Virus record (IMG/VR): IMGVR_UViG_3300023119_000152
Coordinates: 1 to 21,063 of that record
Source: a virus
Length of the DNA: 21,063 bases
Strand: one strand, 5' to 3'
Part shown: positions 317-8,345 of the stretch, in pieces
Layout of the letters: each line of letters begins with the position of its first letter
Numbering within the stretch: position 1 is the first letter of the stretch
Notes under the pieces: generated by a model
Databases searched by the model: none
Told to the model about the DNA's origin: nothing
Seen by the model: the letters and a program-made list of their open reading frames with translations, nothing else
Made by a program: the position numbers and the translations under genes

Positions 317-1038
317 TATTACTGAATGAAGACGAGAATGATGTCGAAGAAACTGAGGGTGAGGAACAACCAGAGGAACAAAAAGATCTAAGGTCAATTG
401 ACCAGCAAACAAATGATATTATAAAAAGTGACAGTCGAACGAAAACAAATCTGAGTGACACAAAGAAATGGTTTCGTGAGAAGATCAATCAGGTATTATA
501 TCCCACAATGCGAGTGATGGGAGTTCGTGAAAGACCGAACAGTTTCTATCATCAAAATAAAGAATATCGCATTTTTCGTGGATCTCAAATACGACCAGGT
601 TCTTTATACTGCTGGTTCTATGATCCAAAATACAAGAGGACATTACCATACTATGATGCGTTTCCTGTTGCTTTTGTATTGTCTATGTACAATAATGGTT
701 TTCTTGGCATCAACTTACATTATCTACCTCTTCGTGCAAGGGCTACTCTTCTGACACGATTGTTGGATAATATGATGCGTAAAACTTCTTATGGTAGTCA
801 TTTGGATTTACAATACCGTACTCTACAAGCAGCATCACAATATCGTGAAGTGATGCCCTGTATCAAAAGATATTTGATTTCAAATGTTCGTGGTCAAATG
901 ATTGAGATTCCACCAGAAGAATGGATTCGCACAATCTTTTTACCACTCGAAAGTTTTCAAAAGAGAAGTTCTGGAGCAGTTTGGTCAGACTCTTTACGCA
1001 AGGCAAGACAAACAGGGTTTCGTAGGAGAATAAGGTAA
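313..1038 (+). CDS. Conserved phage protein, probable virion structural component
   Basis: The 241-residue protein starts with GTG overlapping the previous stop codon, with AGGA about five bases upstream; no ATG fits as well. Residues 1-55 are very acidic and probably disordered. The rest is compact, aromatic and basic, with a block reading PGSLYCWFYDPKYKRTLPYY followed by GFLGINLHYLPLRAR. I associate this block with conserved proteins next to gp26 in T4-like marine myophages, usually annotated only as structural. The C-terminus is arginine-rich. It is stop/start-coupled (TAATG) to the tube-domain gene and lies in a cluster of tail genes, which supports a tail or baseplate role. The exact function is unknown. 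Confidence 0.75.
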   Translation: MILLNEDENDVEETEGEEQPEEQKDLRSIDQQTNDIIKSDSRTKTNLSDTKKWFREKINQVLYPTMRVMGVRERPNSFYHQNKEYRIFRGSQIRPGSLYCWFYDPKYKRTLPYYDAFPVAFVLSMYNNGFLGINLHYLPLRARATLLTRLLDNMMRKTSYGSHLDLQYRTLQAASQYREVMPCIKRYLISNVRGQMIEIPPEEWIRTIFLPLESFQKRSSGAVWSDSLRKARQTGFRRRIR

Positions 1039-4000
1039 TGGCAGTTCAATCACTAAATGACCAAAGGTATTATGCAGCTCAAAATCAACTAAAAGATCGA
1101 TATGAAAAAACTGGAGCTGTAGGAACTCCAGCTCCTTGGGAATATGGAACTGAAACTACACCTTTTACTATACAGAATTTAAGAAATAAAATTAGTGGAG
1201 TCAATCAACTCTCAAAGTTTTATTTTGATTTGCCTAAAATAAGAAATGAATCAAGTGACCGTACTAATTTAGTTAAGAAAGCTTGGGACTTAACAACTGC
1301 AGATTTACCTGGCGCCTCGCAAGCTTTAAAGAATATTTACTTTTATTCTGAAAATATCACAATACCAATGAGAGGAATCAATACAGATCCTCATGTGTAT
1401 GCGAACGGTTTTAAGTTCGAAGCTCCAATCGGAACAAATTACGGTGATGGTGATATAGCAATCACCATGATTGTTGATAAAGATTACTACCTATATGATT
1501 TCTTTATGAATTGGATGAATCAAATTCATAGCAAAAATACAGGCTATTTTTCTTTTCATGATCAATACGTTACAGATATTGATATCTATCAATTGAATAA
1601 TGTGGGAGTTGACTTCTCGAAGAATTCAAATTTTGATAATATGATCGCTGATACTACTAAAGGATTTGTTAACTATAAAGTATCATTAGGAAATTGTTAT
1701 CCTAAAAGTGTGACCGCAATTGAATTCAAACATGAAGCGGCCAACGAGAGAACTAAAATCACAGTTGGATTCACTTATGAAAAAATTGATTACGAGAATC
1801 CTAAACGAAATAAGATTGATTTGAGTGTTCCGATTGATCCTCGTTTTGCCAATATTAATCAGCTTGAAGAACGATATAATCTTCCTTTTGTGAACAAACC
1901 ACAACCAGAAGCTCCTTTTTATGATCCTACAAAAGATCCTAGCCTGAATTTTGGCGCTCAAGGAGCAGATACTTCTACCGATTCGAAAATGTTCAATGTT
2001 GAAGATTATTATAAACAAAGAGATGACTTTTATAAAGCGGCATCATTTGATTATTTTGACCACCCTACTATGGAATCCCCAACAGCAGAAGATTTTCGAA
2101 GAGTAAGAGGTGATAATTTTAATGCGATCAATGAAGCTGAACTAGATAATATTATCACAACTATTGAGAGTCGAAATCCTCCTAAATGGGTATATGATGA
2201 AGATTCAATGCGTTGGTCACAAAATCCAGAATGGCAGTCAGAACAAGAAATTCGTAATGAGGCAATTGAACAATGGTTTGAATATACAAGAGAAAAATTA
2301 ACTATTGATTCCGAGACACTTCAAGAAGAAATTGAAAGTCAATTAGAAGATATAGAAAGAAATCAAGAAACATCTCTATACATTACTGATGAAAATGGTT
2401 ATGCGATTGAAAATCCTAATTATGACCATCGAAGATATCCTGGTGAGACTGACGAAGAATTTGCAGAAAGAAGAGCAAAAATAAGTTTAGGAGTTGTAGA
2501 TGTTCCTGACCGTGGCGAATTTACTGATGATGAAGGAAATTTTGATATGGAATCTTTCTCAAGATATATGGCAGATAATATTACAAATCAAGATGTGATT
2601 GATCAATTCAATCGTACTTTACCTGCAGGTATGACACCGACCGGTAATCCTGACCGTAAACATCAAACTTTTGAGGAAATATATGACCGTCTAAAAGAAG
2701 ATAATGATTCATTACCAGATGAGATTATAGTAAGTCCAGGCCCTGGTGTAAATCATGTGATCACAAAACCAAATCCAGAAAAGAAAACAGAACTTGAACT
2801 ATATAACGAAGCAATCAATGAACTTGCTGGATACGGTAACTCAAGAAGTAATGTGGGTCCTGAAACAATTATGGCTCCTTCAAAAGCTGATGGCATGCAT
2901 CCAGTTCCCGCATCAATTGTAAATGATCCAAATCCACAAGTATTAGAACAATACGCTAAAACATTATATGACGAGGGCGGCCCAGACATTCGTGACTTTG
3001 CTACACAAAAAGCAGAATGGGCTGAAGAACAACATTTACGAAACATGGCACATGTTCAACTAGAAAATAGTGAGGTGAGTGATAAACTTCAAGACCTTTT
3101 ATTAAATGAGGATCGCAACTATTCGCCAGAGGATGTATTGCACACTCTTCCTGAAGAAATGAATAAGTTTGATGTAGACAATCCTCAAACAGAAACACAA
3201 AAAGTTAAAGCTGCTTTGATTAATCGCCTTGCTGTTGGAGAAGGAACAGTACCTTTAAATGAAAGAGAAACAAATATTCTGCTTGATATAGTCAATGACC
3301 AATATGGTTTATCAATTCCTCATGGTACGAATTTATATGAAAATCCAAGAGCAATCACGGATGCGATGAGAGGAAGAGGTTTTGACCAAGAATTATTTGT
3401 TCATTTTCGAGAAAGAGAACGTGAGTTAACAGAAGACCAAGCAAATATGCAGACTCTTAGTGTGAATCAAGCAACGAATGCTCTCAATGATGTTGTGAAT
3501 AATATTAACGCAAATCACGCAATTTCAATGCTCAATCGTGCGGGTGAACACGGTCAACAAATTCAAGACGCAAAAGATGCGGCTCAAATGAAAAAAATTG
3601 AAGAGATACGAGAAAATTATCGACAAGAACTTAACTCACCAACACGTAATTTTTGGCGTGACATGGTTGAACAACAAAGACAAGATCGAATCGACAAAGG
3701 AGGAAATCCACAGTATACTGGAAGAGAACAAGCAATTATGGATGCTGCTGATGATGGAAAAATGACAAGCCAAGATCTACACACATTTGCTTCTGTATTA
3801 CATCAAGAACAGATTGATGAAAATCGTGTTTATCGTACTAGTTTAGAAGAAGGATTTAAACCTGAAGAAGTTGGTGTCAATGCTTATTATAATTTTCAAG
3901 CAGCAAAACAACACACAAATCATGAAACAACTGTACATACTCCAGTTACAACAGAAGAAGAAAGATTCAGAATTGCTGGTAAATCTTTAGCACAGCAATT

Positions 4001-4172
4001 ACGAGAGAGTCAAGCTGCAGCGGGATATGCTTCGAATCTGGATGTTCCAACAGATCAATTACAACTTATGTCTTATCTTAAAAGATATGAAGAACTTGGT
4101 CCTGATGAAAGAAATCGTGTGCTTGTTGTCACTCGTGCAATCATCGAAGAAAATCGAGAAAAACAATTATGA
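1038..4172 (+). CDS. Tail-tube-fold baseplate protein (gp48/gp54/gp19-like domain) with very long C-terminal extension
   Basis: AGGAG lies upstream and the start overlaps the previous stop (TAATG). Residues of about 30-265 have the pattern of the T4 gp19 tail-tube superfamily: a loop NIYFYSENITIPMRGI, a block DIAITMIVDKDYYLYDFFMN, and a closing strand set around NCYPKSVTAIEF and KITVGFTYEKI. In T4 this fold is used by the tube protein gp19 and by the tube initiators gp48 and gp54. The remaining ~780 residues are charged, Glu/Gln/Asn-rich and probably helical or disordered, with no domain I recognise. T4 gp48 and gp54 are about 320-365 residues, so the extension is unusual. The tube-fold call is fairly strong; the gp54 versus gp48 assignment is not decided. 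Confidence 0.75.
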   Translation: MAVQSLNDQRYYAAQNQLKDRYEKTGAVGTPAPWEYGTETTPFTIQNLRNKISGVNQLSKFYFDLPKIRNESSDRTNLVKKAWDLTTADLPGASQALKNIYFYSENITIPMRGINTDPHVYANGFKFEAPIGTNYGDGDIAITMIVDKDYYLYDFFMNWMNQIHSKNTGYFSFHDQYVTDIDIYQLNNVGVDFSKNSNFDNMIADTTKGFVNYKVSLGNCYPKSVTAIEFKHEAANERTKITVGFTYEKIDYENPKRNKIDLSVPIDPRFANINQLEERYNLPFVNKPQPEAPFYDPTKDPSLNFGAQGADTSTDSKMFNVEDYYKQRDDFYKAASFDYFDHPTMESPTAEDFRRVRGDNFNAINEAELDNIITTIESRNPPKWVYDEDSMRWSQNPEWQSEQEIRNEAIEQWFEYTREKLTIDSETLQEEIESQLEDIERNQETSLYITDENGYAIENPNYDHRRYPGETDEEFAERRAKISLGVVDVPDRGEFTDDEGNFDMESFSRYMADNITNQDVIDQFNRTLPAGMTPTGNPDRKHQTFEEIYDRLKEDNDSLPDEIIVSPGPGVNHVITKPNPEKKTELELYNEAINELAGYGNSRSNVGPETIMAPSKADGMHPVPASIVNDPNPQVLEQYAKTLYDEGGPDIRDFATQKAEWAEEQHLRNMAHVQLENSEVSDKLQDLLLNEDRNYSPEDVLHTLPEEMNKFDVDNPQTETQKVKAALINRLAVGEGTVPLNERETNILLDIVNDQYGLSIPHGTNLYENPRAITDAMRGRGFDQELFVHFRERERELTEDQANMQTLSVNQATNALNDVVNNINANHAISMLNRAGEHGQQIQDAKDAAQMKKIEEIRENYRQELNSPTRNFWRDMVEQQRQDRIDKGGNPQYTGREQAIMDAADDGKMTSQDLHTFASVLHQEQIDENRVYRTSLEEGFKPEEVGVNAYYNFQAAKQHTNHETTVHTPVTTEEERFRIAGKSLAQQLRESQAAAGYASNLDVPTDQLQLMSYLKRYEELGPDERNRVLVVTRAIIEENREKQL

Positions 4173-4181
4173 AAGGAAATA

Positions 4182-4910
4182 ATGCTTTTACCAAAATTGA
4201 ATCGAATTACATATCGTTTGACATTACCTTCAAATGATAAAGAAATTACTTATCGGCCGTTCACAGTTGAAGAAGAAAAGATTTTACTGACGGCTCAAGA
4301 ATCGACATCACCAGATGATGTTTTGAATGCAATGAGACAAATCATTAATAATTGCATTCAAACTGAAATTGATGTAACTAAACTTCCGACTTTTGATATT
4401 GAATACTTCTTTCTCAACATTCGGGCAAAGTCAACAGGTGAAGAAATTGAATTGATTGTTCGTCATCCAAATGGTGTCAATTCAAAAGAACAACCTTGCG
4501 ACCATAAAGAGAATGTAAAGATTAATATTGAATCAATCAAGGTTGAAAAATCAAAGAAACACACCAATCGTTTTCAATTAGATGATAATGTTGGTGTAGT
4601 GATGAAGTATCCAAGTATGGAAGCTTTAGCATTTGGCGACCTTAATGATTTTGATTCTTTTGTGAAAGTAATTGCAAATTCAATTGAACTTATTTTTGAT
4701 GAGAATGATACTTATCCAGCAGAAGACTGTAGTGAAAAAGAATTGATTGAGTTTGTAATGAGTATGAATCAAAAACAAATTGCTATGATTCAAGAATTTT
4801 TTGAAACAATGCCCGTATTGAAACATGAAATCAATTATATCTGTACTGGATGTGAATGTAAAGAGAGTGTTACAATACAAGGATTTCAAAATTTTTTTTT
4901 ATCGCCATGA
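4182..4910 (+). CDS. 26: gp26-like baseplate hub/tail assembly protein
   Basis: The 242-residue protein follows a clear AAGGAAATA ribosome binding site. It resembles T4 gp26-family proteins (T4 baseplate protein family), especially the marine versions: an opening MLLPKLN..TYRLTLPS, then TYRPFTVEEEKILL, LPTFDIEYFFLNIRAKS.GEEIEL, and a cysteine-containing C-terminus with C221, C224 and C226 followed by QGFQNFF. C106 with the C-terminal cysteines could bind a metal (inference). In T4, gp26 is needed for baseplate hub assembly. The gene ends in a run of nine T that contains a -1 slippery heptamer, and its TGA overlaps the gp51-like ATG. A frameshift would add the 60-residue gp51-like domain, giving a product of about 302 residues. 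Confidence 0.85.
   Translation: MLLPKLNRITYRLTLPSNDKEITYRPFTVEEEKILLTAQESTSPDDVLNAMRQIINNCIQTEIDVTKLPTFDIEYFFLNIRAKSTGEEIELIVRHPNGVNSKEQPCDHKENVKINIESIKVEKSKKHTNRFQLDDNVGVVMKYPSMEALAFGDLNDFDSFVKVIANSIELIFDENDTYPAEDCSEKELIEFVMSMNQKQIAMIQEFFETMPVLKHEINYICTGCECKESVTIQGFQNFFLSP
4895..4901 (+). other. Candidate programmed -1 frameshift site (T TTT TTA)
   Basis: In the gp26 frame the codons read TTT TTT TTA, so T-TTT-TTA is a perfect X-XXY-YYZ heptamer, the same as the HIV gag-pol slippery site. Slipping back one base enters the gp51 frame, which is open from here through ATC GCC into its ATG. A Shine-Dalgarno-like AAGGA at 4879-4883 lies 11 bases upstream, as at the E. coli dnaX site. A weak stem, GATTC/GAATC (4916-4931), lies downstream. 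Confidence 0.6.
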
Positions 4911-5089
4911 GTAACGATTCTTTAATGAATCATTACACTTTGAATTTTGATTTGATGTATCATCATCATTTTTCCTTGACAGAATTAAATCAAATGTATC
5001 CTTATGAACGTGCGATTTATGTAGACTTACTTAATGGATATCTTGAAAAGAAACATTTAGAAGAACAGCAACGAAGAAACGCAGGCTAA
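4907..5089 (+). CDS. 51: gp51-like small baseplate hub/tail assembly protein
   Basis: The 60-residue protein contains the pattern LMYHHHFSLTELNQMYPYERAI, with YERAIYVDLLNGYLE after it. I associate this with the small proteins beside gp26 in T4-like phages, often named gp51, which is a baseplate hub assembly factor in T4. It is much shorter than T4 gp51 (about 250 residues), so the symbol is tentative. The same M.P.ER..Y...L pattern is common in the T-domain of tail assembly chaperones. There is no ribosome binding site in front of its ATG, only the T9 run, so it is translated by coupling through the ATGA overlap, by -1 frameshifting from gp26, or both. Confidence 0.7.
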   Translation: MSNDSLMNHYTLNFDLMYHHHFSLTELNQMYPYERAIYVDLLNGYLEKKHLEEQQRRNAG

Positions 5090-5090
5090 T

Positions 5091-8000
5091 ATGGCTTTAC
5101 CATTACTTACAGATTCAAAAGTAACTGTTGATGTAAATCATGATTCAACTTCTTTGAAAGGAATTGACTTATCTTTAAAACAAGTCGTAAGTGAATTACC
5201 AAAACTTTTCAGTAAAGAAATTGAGAAACAAACTGAAGAACTTAAAGATCATGATACGAATATAAACAAAAAGAAGGTTGAAGAAACTGTTGAAACAATG
5301 AATAAATTTGCCGATGTTCTCAAAGAAAACATTGGTCTGTTTCGTAAGTCAGATTCTTATCAAGCAATGCAAAGGTCTCGGCTTGAAGGTAATCAAGTAA
5401 TAGGTTCTACCGGACAACAACCTGCTGTTGTTCCACAAAGAAATACATATGCTGTTCAAAATCTATCACTTGGTCGTATAGCCGGCGACACAATGAGAGA
5501 AGGTCGTGATCGACTTTTGAATCGTTTTCGTGAAAATTCTTTTATAAAGTTTGGTTCTCGTTTAGCAGATGGTATAAATGCCTTTCGTGGTCAACCTACA
5601 AATTATAGTCAAAATCGTGAACAAACTCAAAGTGAATTAGAATCTGAACAAAAAGATAATCGTAATCAAAAGAAAATCATCAATCTTCTTGAATACTTAC
5701 CAAAAATTCTTCTCAAGTTAGATGGTGATAAAGACGAAAAGAAAGAAGAAAAAGGTCTTCTAAGAAAGTTACTTGATGCGTTTCTGATTTTTAAAGCTGG
5801 TAATTGGCTTGCGAGTTTAATAGGTGGAGGTCTTGGTGCTGCCGGTATCGGTGCTTTGATGGCAAAAGCAGGTACTCTTCTTGGTGCTGGTTTAGGTATT
5901 GGTGCGGCGATTGCTAAATTAGGTTTAGCCGCTGTGATTGGCGCAGCAATTCTTGGAACAGTTTTTGATTCATTCATGACATATTTTAAAAATTCAGATG
6001 ATTGGAAAGCGGGACCAATAGCAAAGATTTTTGGTTCAATTTTAGGAGGTTCTGGAGGTGTATACAGTGCAGCTTTACGGGGTATCACAGGAGCTTATCT
6101 TGGTTTTAAAGCAGGTGCTTTATTCGGACCTATGGGAGCAATTATCGGATTGATTCTTGGTGGTGTAATTGGTGCGATTACAGGTTATATTGGTGGTGAA
6201 AAAATAGCAGAAACAATGAGTGAAATTGGTGATGATTTTGCCGAAGGTTGGAAAAAACTGATGGCAATTCTGACCGGAAAAACAATCGATGATGTTCGTG
6301 AAAAAACATTGAGAGTGATCGATGAAACAAGTGATCCTACTTCCAAAACTGAGTTGACAAATTCACTTGAAAATGTTGAAAATTCAAATGATAGATTACA
6401 GGCGGCCGAAACAAAAAGGAATGAACTTTTCGAAAAGGTAAAAGAGCAAAGAAATATAAATGCTCAAGGATCCACACCAGATAGCAGAGAAAAATTAAGA
6501 GAACTTGAACAACAATATAACGAAGCAATCAAAGAATATGATGAGGCAAGAAAAAATTTTCGTGAAGATTCAAGGAATTTGAGTGCTGATGTAAACACTC
6601 AAGATAGTGTCAATCAACTTGATAAAGTCATCTATGGTAAAGAAGGTGAAACTGTAGAAATTCAAAAAGACGGTTTGTTATATGGTAAAGATAATATTGA
6701 AGTAACAGTAACTCCTCAAGAACAACGAATTGCTGCAAATCAAAAACGTAATGTACTCAGTGAAAATAGACTTCGAAGATTACAGCAAGACCTTGTTCAA
6801 GATGCATCTACATCTCCATTGCTTGAAGAAAGCACACGAAAGGAATATCAAACTGCTCAAGAGACTATTGAAGAGAAAGGAAGTTTACTGAATAAAATTC
6901 CTTTATTTGGTTCATTTTTTGATGATGAAGAAATGGCAAAAGCCAAAGCAACAGTTGAGAGAATTGAAGCTGAACTTTTACAAAAGAAAAAAGATACACG
7001 TCTTCGTATGAATCAAATTGAAGCAGATATGGCAGCAACTGTTCAAGAAAATATTGGCTTAGGTACACAAGACAGGTCAGAATCAATGACCAATATTATA
7101 TCAGGTGAAACACTTGGTGGTCCAGATGCACAACCAGAACCACGACAAAGAATAAATTCTAAAGCAAATGAAAGAAGTATTTCTGTAGATCCAGCGAAAT
7201 CAAAAGATGGAGGCAGACAAGACCAAACTTCAATTCAAGAAATTAAACCTGATGCTGTTGTAGCAAATCTTTCAGATGAACAAGTGAAGACATATGCTCT
7301 TGAATTGATCCGAAGAGAAGAGATGGGTTCAAAATCAGCCGCTCTTACACCAATTCAAGATCCTGCTAAGTATTGGAAAGATGATGGATCAAAAATGATG
7401 CAACTTGGTTATGGTTCAAACTTCATCAAAGAAGGAAATGAATGGGTGAAAGTGAAACCTGGATATGAAAATTCAAATGGTGAAATGGTTTATCCTCATC
7501 AGTTGAAGTCAGAAGCTGAAGCTGAACAATTACTTCGTGATAGTTTTAATCGTGAATTTGATCAATTTATGAAAGATCCAGAAAAGAAAGCAATCTTTGA
7601 TCAAATTCAAAATCCTGCTCGTAAAATGGTTTTGATGTCCACCATTTATCAATTAGGTGAACACGGCATGGATAAGTTTAAGAAAACTTGGCCTTTGATA
7701 AAATCGGCTGTCGAAGAGCAAGATTGGAATCTAAAAGGATATCGTTGGCAAACTGCCGCAAGAGAAATGGCAAATTCAGTATGGCATAATGAACAAACAC
7801 CTGAACGAGCCGGTAGAGTTGTTGATGTAATTGCGAATGGTGGAGATGTTCGATGGGATGGTGGTGTTATCTATCAACAATCCGCCGTACCATCAGTTGC
7901 TGCTCGGCAAGGTGGTAAAGAGGCGGTAAAGGCTAAAGCAGGAGCAGAAGGAAGAGTTGTTACACAACTTGAAGAGATTGTTGTTGGTGATTATAAAGGT

Positions 8001-8345
8001 ATTGAAAACAATCCTGAAGTTGTGATACCAATGAATGATTTGGAAGAAAGAGTTCTGCAGACAGTCACAAAGATGATGGAGATTCGAGACCAAACAGCAA
8101 GTCGAAACAATGAACTTTTATCAATGAATAATGAATTGCGAATGCAGAAGTTTATTGAAAGTACTCAGAAGATTGAACAGAGGATACAAGCGAAGGAGAG
8201 TATTGAAAATTCAAGAAATCAAGTAGTGATGCCTCCTGTAATCAGTCAAGTGGATAATTCTCAACTCAATCAAACAAATCAAAGTATTATCATTAATCGC
8301 CCAGTTGAGAATGCTCACAATCCATTCCGATTATCACTCGGCTAA
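5091..8345 (+). CDS. Tape-measure-like virion protein with T4-lysozyme-like (GH24) domain
   Basis: The 1084-residue protein has an N-terminal coiled-coil-like part (about 1-100), two long Gly/Ala/Leu-rich hydrophobic stretches (about 229-300 and 335-372), a charged helical middle, and a lysozyme-like domain at about 728-915. The domain is seen from EE at 743-744, D765 before GS, QLGYG at 771-775, YQLGEHGMDKF, and HNEQTPERAGRV at 900-909, which parallels T4 lysozyme NQTPNRAKRV. The position matching catalytic T26 is Q771. The C-terminus (SQVDNSQLNQTNQ, ending in NPFRLSLG) is typical of large phage tail proteins. Hydrophobic segments, length and position right after the gp26/gp51 pair suggest a tape measure (gp29 role) carrying a peptidoglycan hydrolase. 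It could instead be a separate hub lysozyme. Function beyond the lysozyme resemblance is inferred. Confidence 0.75.
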   Translation: MALPLLTDSKVTVDVNHDSTSLKGIDLSLKQVVSELPKLFSKEIEKQTEELKDHDTNINKKKVEETVETMNKFADVLKENIGLFRKSDSYQAMQRSRLEGNQVIGSTGQQPAVVPQRNTYAVQNLSLGRIAGDTMREGRDRLLNRFRENSFIKFGSRLADGINAFRGQPTNYSQNREQTQSELESEQKDNRNQKKIINLLEYLPKILLKLDGDKDEKKEEKGLLRKLLDAFLIFKAGNWLASLIGGGLGAAGIGALMAKAGTLLGAGLGIGAAIAKLGLAAVIGAAILGTVFDSFMTYFKNSDDWKAGPIAKIFGSILGGSGGVYSAALRGITGAYLGFKAGALFGPMGAIIGLILGGVIGAITGYIGGEKIAETMSEIGDDFAEGWKKLMAILTGKTIDDVREKTLRVIDETSDPTSKTELTNSLENVENSNDRLQAAETKRNELFEKVKEQRNINAQGSTPDSREKLRELEQQYNEAIKEYDEARKNFREDSRNLSADVNTQDSVNQLDKVIYGKEGETVEIQKDGLLYGKDNIEVTVTPQEQRIAANQKRNVLSENRLRRLQQDLVQDASTSPLLEESTRKEYQTAQETIEEKGSLLNKIPLFGSFFDDEEMAKAKATVERIEAELLQKKKDTRLRMNQIEADMAATVQENIGLGTQDRSESMTNIISGETLGGPDAQPEPRQRINSKANERSISVDPAKSKDGGRQDQTSIQEIKPDAVVANLSDEQVKTYALELIRREEMGSKSAALTPIQDPAKYWKDDGSKMMQLGYGSNFIKEGNEWVKVKPGYENSNGEMVYPHQLKSEAEAEQLLRDSFNREFDQFMKDPEKKAIFDQIQNPARKMVLMSTIYQLGEHGMDKFKKTWPLIKSAVEEQDWNLKGYRWQTAAREMANSVWHNEQTPERAGRVVDVIANGGDVRWDGGVIYQQSAVPSVAARQGGKEAVKAKAGAEGRVVTQLEEIVVGDYKGIENNPEVVIPMNDLEERVLQTVTKMMEIRDQTASRNNELLSMNNELRMQKFIESTQKIEQRIQAKESIENSRNQVVMPPVISQVDNSQLNQTNQSIIINRPVENAHNPFRLSLG

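Follow-up and report, generated by a model that had tools for sequence, protein, structure and literature searches.

Genes 26 and 51 of an uncultured T4-like phage are very probably a single gene decoded by a programmed -1 frameshift

Background

The junction of gp26 and gp51 in an uncultured T4-like phage, represented by the IMG/VR record IMGVR_UViG_3300023119_000152, raises the question of whether these are two genes or one. The window analyzed here is the whole available stretch of 21,063 nucleotides. In it gp26 ends in a run of Ts and gp51 continues in the -1 frame, an arrangement that recalls the frameshifted tail assembly chaperones (TACs) encoded just before the tape-measure gene of long-tailed phages.

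The gp26/gp51 frameshift in T4-like phages has been known since 2022, and the window is a further example of a known device. It is reportedly conserved in several T4-like groups, T4 being said to use genes 26 and 51. Our literature search found no paper tying T4-like gp26/gp51 to frameshifting under those names, the key paper using the term "tail assembly chaperone". The TAC genes of T4-like phages were identified by Vladimirov, Gautam and Davidson (2022, Virology 566:9-15), and poly-T -1 signals in "TAC-N genes of T4-like phages" are mentioned in PMC12846349, which cites that work. The published T4-like TACs share with the window the gene family and, very probably, a -1 frameshift from TAC-N to TAC-C, which in the window lies near a putative tape-measure gene; the window differs in coming from an uncultured phage, and from a clade with a run of nine Ts (T9, containing T TTT TTT and T TTT TTA) and an ATG that overlaps or lies next to the stop codon. 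Likewise, lambda gpG/gpGT (Xu, Hendrix and Duda 2004) resemble the window in combining a short protein with its -1 extension, just before the tape-measure gene in lambda and before a tape-measure-like gene in the window.

Results and discussion

The gp26/gp51 junction

The gene for gp26, a putative short chaperone (TAC-N), occupies positions 4182-4910 on the plus strand and encodes 242 amino acids, ending with the TGA at 4908-4910. The TAC-C element, gp51, is an extension in the -1 frame on the same strand (4898-5089), with 63 codons counted from 4898, an ATG at 4907 and a stop codon at 5087-5089. The 3' end of gp26 reads AAT TTT TTT TTA TCG CCA TGA, and the ATG of gp51 overlaps the TGA as ATGA (4907-4910). 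The T9 at 4892-4900 is the longest T run of the window and is in phase for -1 slippage. Three overlapping in-frame heptamers of the form X XXY YYZ are present here, namely AAATTTT at 4889, TTTTTTT at 4892 and TTTTTTA at 4895, and the candidate slippery site comprises the last two (T TTT TTT, 4892-4898, and T TTT TTA, 4895-4901; together 4892-4901, plus strand). The initial annotation had assigned slippage to T TTT TTA; this heptamer is indeed present in the frame needed for a -1 slip, but the site that aligns with those of relatives, as judged by a conserved Gly four codons upstream, is T TTT TTT, one codon further upstream. The gp51 frame is open through 5089, and slippage at either T-run heptamer would yield a fusion of 302 amino acids, the approximate length originally proposed, with residue 240 being F or L depending on the heptamer. 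Apart from those at the end of gp26, no in-frame heptamer in the tail genes of the window opens into a -1 ORF exceeding 6 amino acids.

Conservation of the slippery site and of the extension

A search of IMG/VR with gp26 recovered 80 loci, all of which show a run of at least six Ts shortly before the gp26 stop codon, followed by an open -1 frame. We assembled a main set of 57 non-redundant relatives from these loci and from isolate genomes in annotated records, with less than 95% nucleotide identity over the 3' part of gp26. In 57 of the 57 the gp26 frame contains a T TTT TTN that is separated from the stop codon by 0-3 codons, and gp51 is open in the -1 frame; the sequences share ancestry, so that these counts are of non-independent events. 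The comparison of junctions suggested with the initial annotation thus encountered no relative in this set with a missing site or a different frame relation. The heptamer is TTTTTTC in 44 of them, TTTTTTT in seven and TTTTTTA in six, and its first Phe codon is TTT throughout, whereas TTT and TTC stand at 423 to 223 among the other Phe codons of the same genes. Correspondingly, the fraction of identical codons among pairs with the same residue is 1.0 at the first Phe of the heptamer, as against 0.23-0.76 at other nearby codons. Site and frame are retained in the Straboviridae phages ValKK3, phiAS5, AS-yj and LPCS28, as well as in Pelagibacter phages, Methylophilales phages, OLIVR5, Atu_ph07, phiW-14, phiN3 and phiM9. 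From the aligned sequences we conclude that the slippery signal is real and strongly conserved, and not a product of chance.

Protein-level conservation of the extension sets in at the first codon past the slip, with the sequence R-I/L-x-L-A-H-E-S-L-E-N-Y-Y. In its first 14 codons 38 of the 57 relatives have no ATG, and 31 have no ATG, GTG or TTG. Given the lack of start codons in those 31 relatives and conservation beginning immediately after the slip, a frameshift is the simplest way in which the C-terminal domain could be expressed.

In Kuttervirus-like phages the gp26 3' junction ATTTTCATTTAATTTTTGAAATTGATTTA is identical in DNA, although the proteins are 70-100% identical. This invariance suggests a signal acting at the RNA level.

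Likely stimulatory elements

A Shine-Dalgarno-like AAGGA at 4879-4883 (plus strand) is a likely stimulator of -1 frameshifting. It had been placed 11 bases upstream of the slippery site, a distance that is correct for T TTT TTA and becomes 8 nt for T TTT TTT; lying 23 nt before the gp51 ATG, it is too far away to be the ribosome-binding site of gp51. Across the 57 relatives the predicted pairing with the anti-Shine-Dalgarno sequence averages about -6 kcal/mol in 12-nt segments whose centers lie 9-15 nt ahead of the heptamer, as against about +1 to -2.5 kcal/mol outside this peak. Downstream, RNA folding in the same relatives reaches its lowest mean z-score, -1.99 by mononucleotide shuffles, in the 60-nt segment that starts at +10 from the first base of the heptamer, and approaches 0 further along. 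The window has a possible but weak 3' hairpin at 4911-4936 (plus strand); the region 4902-4970 folds at -12.4 kcal/mol with a z-score of -1.36 by dinucleotide shuffles, values that lend no support to a strong pseudoknot or hairpin at this particular junction. An upstream Shine-Dalgarno-like element, a heptamer and a tendency to form a downstream hairpin are also features of the -1 signal of Escherichia coli dnaX; the dnaX heptamer is an A run, unlike the T run of gp26/gp51, and the gene is unrelated. The T run is equally unlike the slippery sequence of lambda, G GGA AAG.

Frameshifting and its alternatives

The nature of the T9 tract allows two further ways in which the frames could come to be joined. 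Homopolymers are prone to sequencing and assembly errors, and the initial annotation had allowed that a miscounted T9 might separate what is truly one frame. Yet an identical T9 occurs in three other IMG/VR contigs, relatives at 64-76% protein identity also keep a T9, and the frames are related in the same way in isolate genomes that have T6C, so that these independent contigs and relatives effectively refute an error, which we consider extremely improbable. Alternatively, RNA polymerase rather than the ribosome might slip on the T9, giving transcripts with an extra U; T runs of about nine do provoke transcriptional slippage, and this tract is the longest of its kind in the window. However, 44 of the 57 relatives have only TTTTTTC at the same place, which is short for efficient transcriptional slippage, and keep the same -1 arrangement, while the phase of the heptamer and the Shine-Dalgarno-like element point to ribosomes. 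Polymerase slippage as the source of the shift is hence unlikely, though ribosomal and transcriptional slippage could be additive in the T9 clade.

Equally, gp51 might be a separate protein, translated by termination and reinitiation at the ATGA of 4907-4910, with the T run being incidental. The overlap of ATG and TGA in the window, an ATG at the same place in the four nearest non-redundant relatives, and the treatment of gp51 as a separate gene in database records would favor this view. But the heptamer is universal in the main set and the ATG is not, over half of the relatives offer no start codon at all near the beginning of the extension, and protein-level conservation of the -1 frame begins before any ATG is reached. 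As a general mechanism reinitiation is thereby ruled out, and as the explanation of this junction it is very improbable, somewhat more so than polymerase slippage; given the ATG at 4907, it could also make some gp51 in the clade of the window.

We therefore favor, with a probability of about 0.93, the interpretation that gp26 and gp51 form a single gene with a frameshift, encoding a TAC-N/TAC-NC pair that corresponds to G/GT of lambda. The initial proposal of a T4-lineage version of G/GT, which as noted has a published precedent, is supported by the site found in 57 of 57 relatives, by the predicted TAC-like N-terminal fold of gp26 and by the tape-measure-like neighbor (both discussed below). 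Most ribosomes would read gp26 to its stop codon and produce the short chaperone TAC-N, whereas a minority would slip back by one base on the U run, helped by the upstream Shine-Dalgarno-like sequence and probably by a downstream hairpin, and continue in the gp51 frame to give a TAC-NC of 302 residues. By analogy with lambda G/GT, TAC-N and TAC-NC would jointly coat the product of the downstream gene, the putative tape measure, and bring in subunits of the tail tube. The efficiency of slippage, the chaperone activity and the binding of the tape measure are properties that we infer for gp26/gp51.

Protein families, folds and gene neighborhood

Profile searches match gp26 to PF12322 (E 6.6e-62) and PHROG_150 (E 1.2e-65), and gp51 to PHROG_634 (E 3e-19). 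In the PDB, the structures that best match an AlphaFold model of gp26 (pLDDT 86) are 3fgx (Z 8.2), the HK97 TAC 2ob9 (VIA Z 7.4, with gp26 residues 1-85 aligned) and YqbN 3klu (Z 7.1), all within residues 1-95, a moderate match (Z 7-8, Foldseek E ~1) at a level of Z that may reflect a common arrangement. We take 3fgx and YqbN to be TAC relatives. By sequence, no similarity of gp26 to the solved TAC chains and no solved relative of gp26 was found. On moderate scores the model suggests that the N-terminal ~90 residues of gp26 are TAC-like, resembling the HK97 tail assembly chaperone, and such an N-terminal fold would be common to TAC systems of the lambda G/GT type. A TAC identity of gp26 is also what the gene order leads one to expect. 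The gp51 domain is modeled as three helices (mean pLDDT 85), and a search of the PDB with this C-terminal domain returned no structural match.

The gene that follows (5091-8345, plus strand) encodes 1084 amino acids and fits the tape-measure-like role earlier proposed for it by its position and size, an assignment that remains putative. Residues 808-917 of its product form a T4-lysozyme-like domain (phmmer E ~1e-6 to T4 lysozyme). In the phage HTVC008M gp26/gp51 are followed by one small ORF and then by a gene annotated as a putative tail tape measure. The slot of the 5091-8345 gene is occupied in a related cyanophage by a "tail lysozyme domain-containing protein". Upstream of gp26, positions 1038-4172 encode a protein of 1044 residues, with a match to tail tube families over residues 94-259 (phrog_45, E 4.8e-20); its C-terminal extension spans nearly 800 residues, and the proteins encoded at this position in relatives have about 170-320 residues.

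The separate genes of T4 and their relationship to the proposed fusion

An examination of the T4 counterparts places the locus in the T4 gene 26/51 family, with gp26 belonging to PF12322 and the extension matching the C-terminus of T4 gp51. PF12322 matches both T4 proteins (gp26, E 8.8e-64; gp51, E 3.9e-52), and T4 gp26 covers positions 14-235 of the PHROG_150 profile, T4 gp51 positions 13-280. T4 gp51 thereby spans almost all of this profile, with the part homologous to gp51 of the window, whereas T4 gp26 ends before it. The match of the window's gp51 to T4 gp51 is confined to the C-terminus of the latter (207-243, E 1.9e-4); the -1 extensions of the relatives align to the same residues, 207-243, and show no match to T4 gp26. 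The end of T4 gp26, GLKEFFELL, is retained, with FF written as TTC TTT, and a slippery site is absent there. T4 genes 26 and 51 are separate, divergent and arranged head to head. Judging by these matches, T4 gp26 is evidently the short form and T4 gp51 the full-length homologue of the fusion, encoded as two genes without a frameshift. When the gp26 alignment was compared by hhalign with the complete T4 gp51, no more than a short and probably spurious stretch aligned; it is the Pfam and PHROG matches that can be relied on for this link.

As to a second gp26 paralogue in the window, the 21-kb fragment of this incomplete genome contains one gp26 match only. According to PMC10885494, which cites Vladimirov et al., some T4-like phages have a short gene together with a long gene for the fusion. 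In RB43 (2501-3794) a long gp51-like and a short gp26-like form are encoded by overlapping tandem genes on one strand; the T4 pair is divergent instead.

Modified candidate sites in Ackermannviridae-like phages

Phages of the Ackermannviridae, and others like them, have another residue in place of the first Phe of the heptamer, but all ten genomes examined preserve the -1 register. Their candidate sites, mostly N NTT TTY, keep TTY as the A-site codon after a T: G GTT TTC in 3M, C GTT TTT in VAP7, G ATT TTC in S118 and phiEa2809, A ATT TTC in XF4, A CTT TTC in D533, VPALA and TSW001, G GCT TTC in YC, and G CTT TTT in K475. The site of 3M is the slippery site of T7 gene 10. An ATG overlaps the stop codon in several of these genomes and is missing in several others, with ATT in S118, ATC in 3M and ATA in phiEa2809 at that place. 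Expression of gp51 in these phages may rely on slippage, on reinitiation or on a rare start codon. It is conceivable, though we advance it tentatively and as somewhat less probable than not, that at least three states of the T4-like TAC frameshift occur: the three-part T TTT TTN signal, resembling that of dnaX, in the group of the window, the T4 duplication without frameshift, and a rebuilt candidate site in the Ackermannviridae-like phages. The changed site of the latter is possibly the residue of novelty in this analysis, and these variants offer natural tests of the requirements of a -1 site.

Implications for annotation

The large environmental sample confirms that many T4-like phages outside the T4 group appear to have gp26 and gp51 as one frameshifted gene. 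In public records gp51 is given as a separate "baseplate hub assembly catalyst", is started too late, or is missed, and corrected annotation would supply full-length TAC-NC proteins for work on the control of tail length. The public annotation of S-WAM1 lacks gp51 altogether, and that of Sf-FP1 starts gp51 at an internal ATG, cutting off part of the conserved domain.
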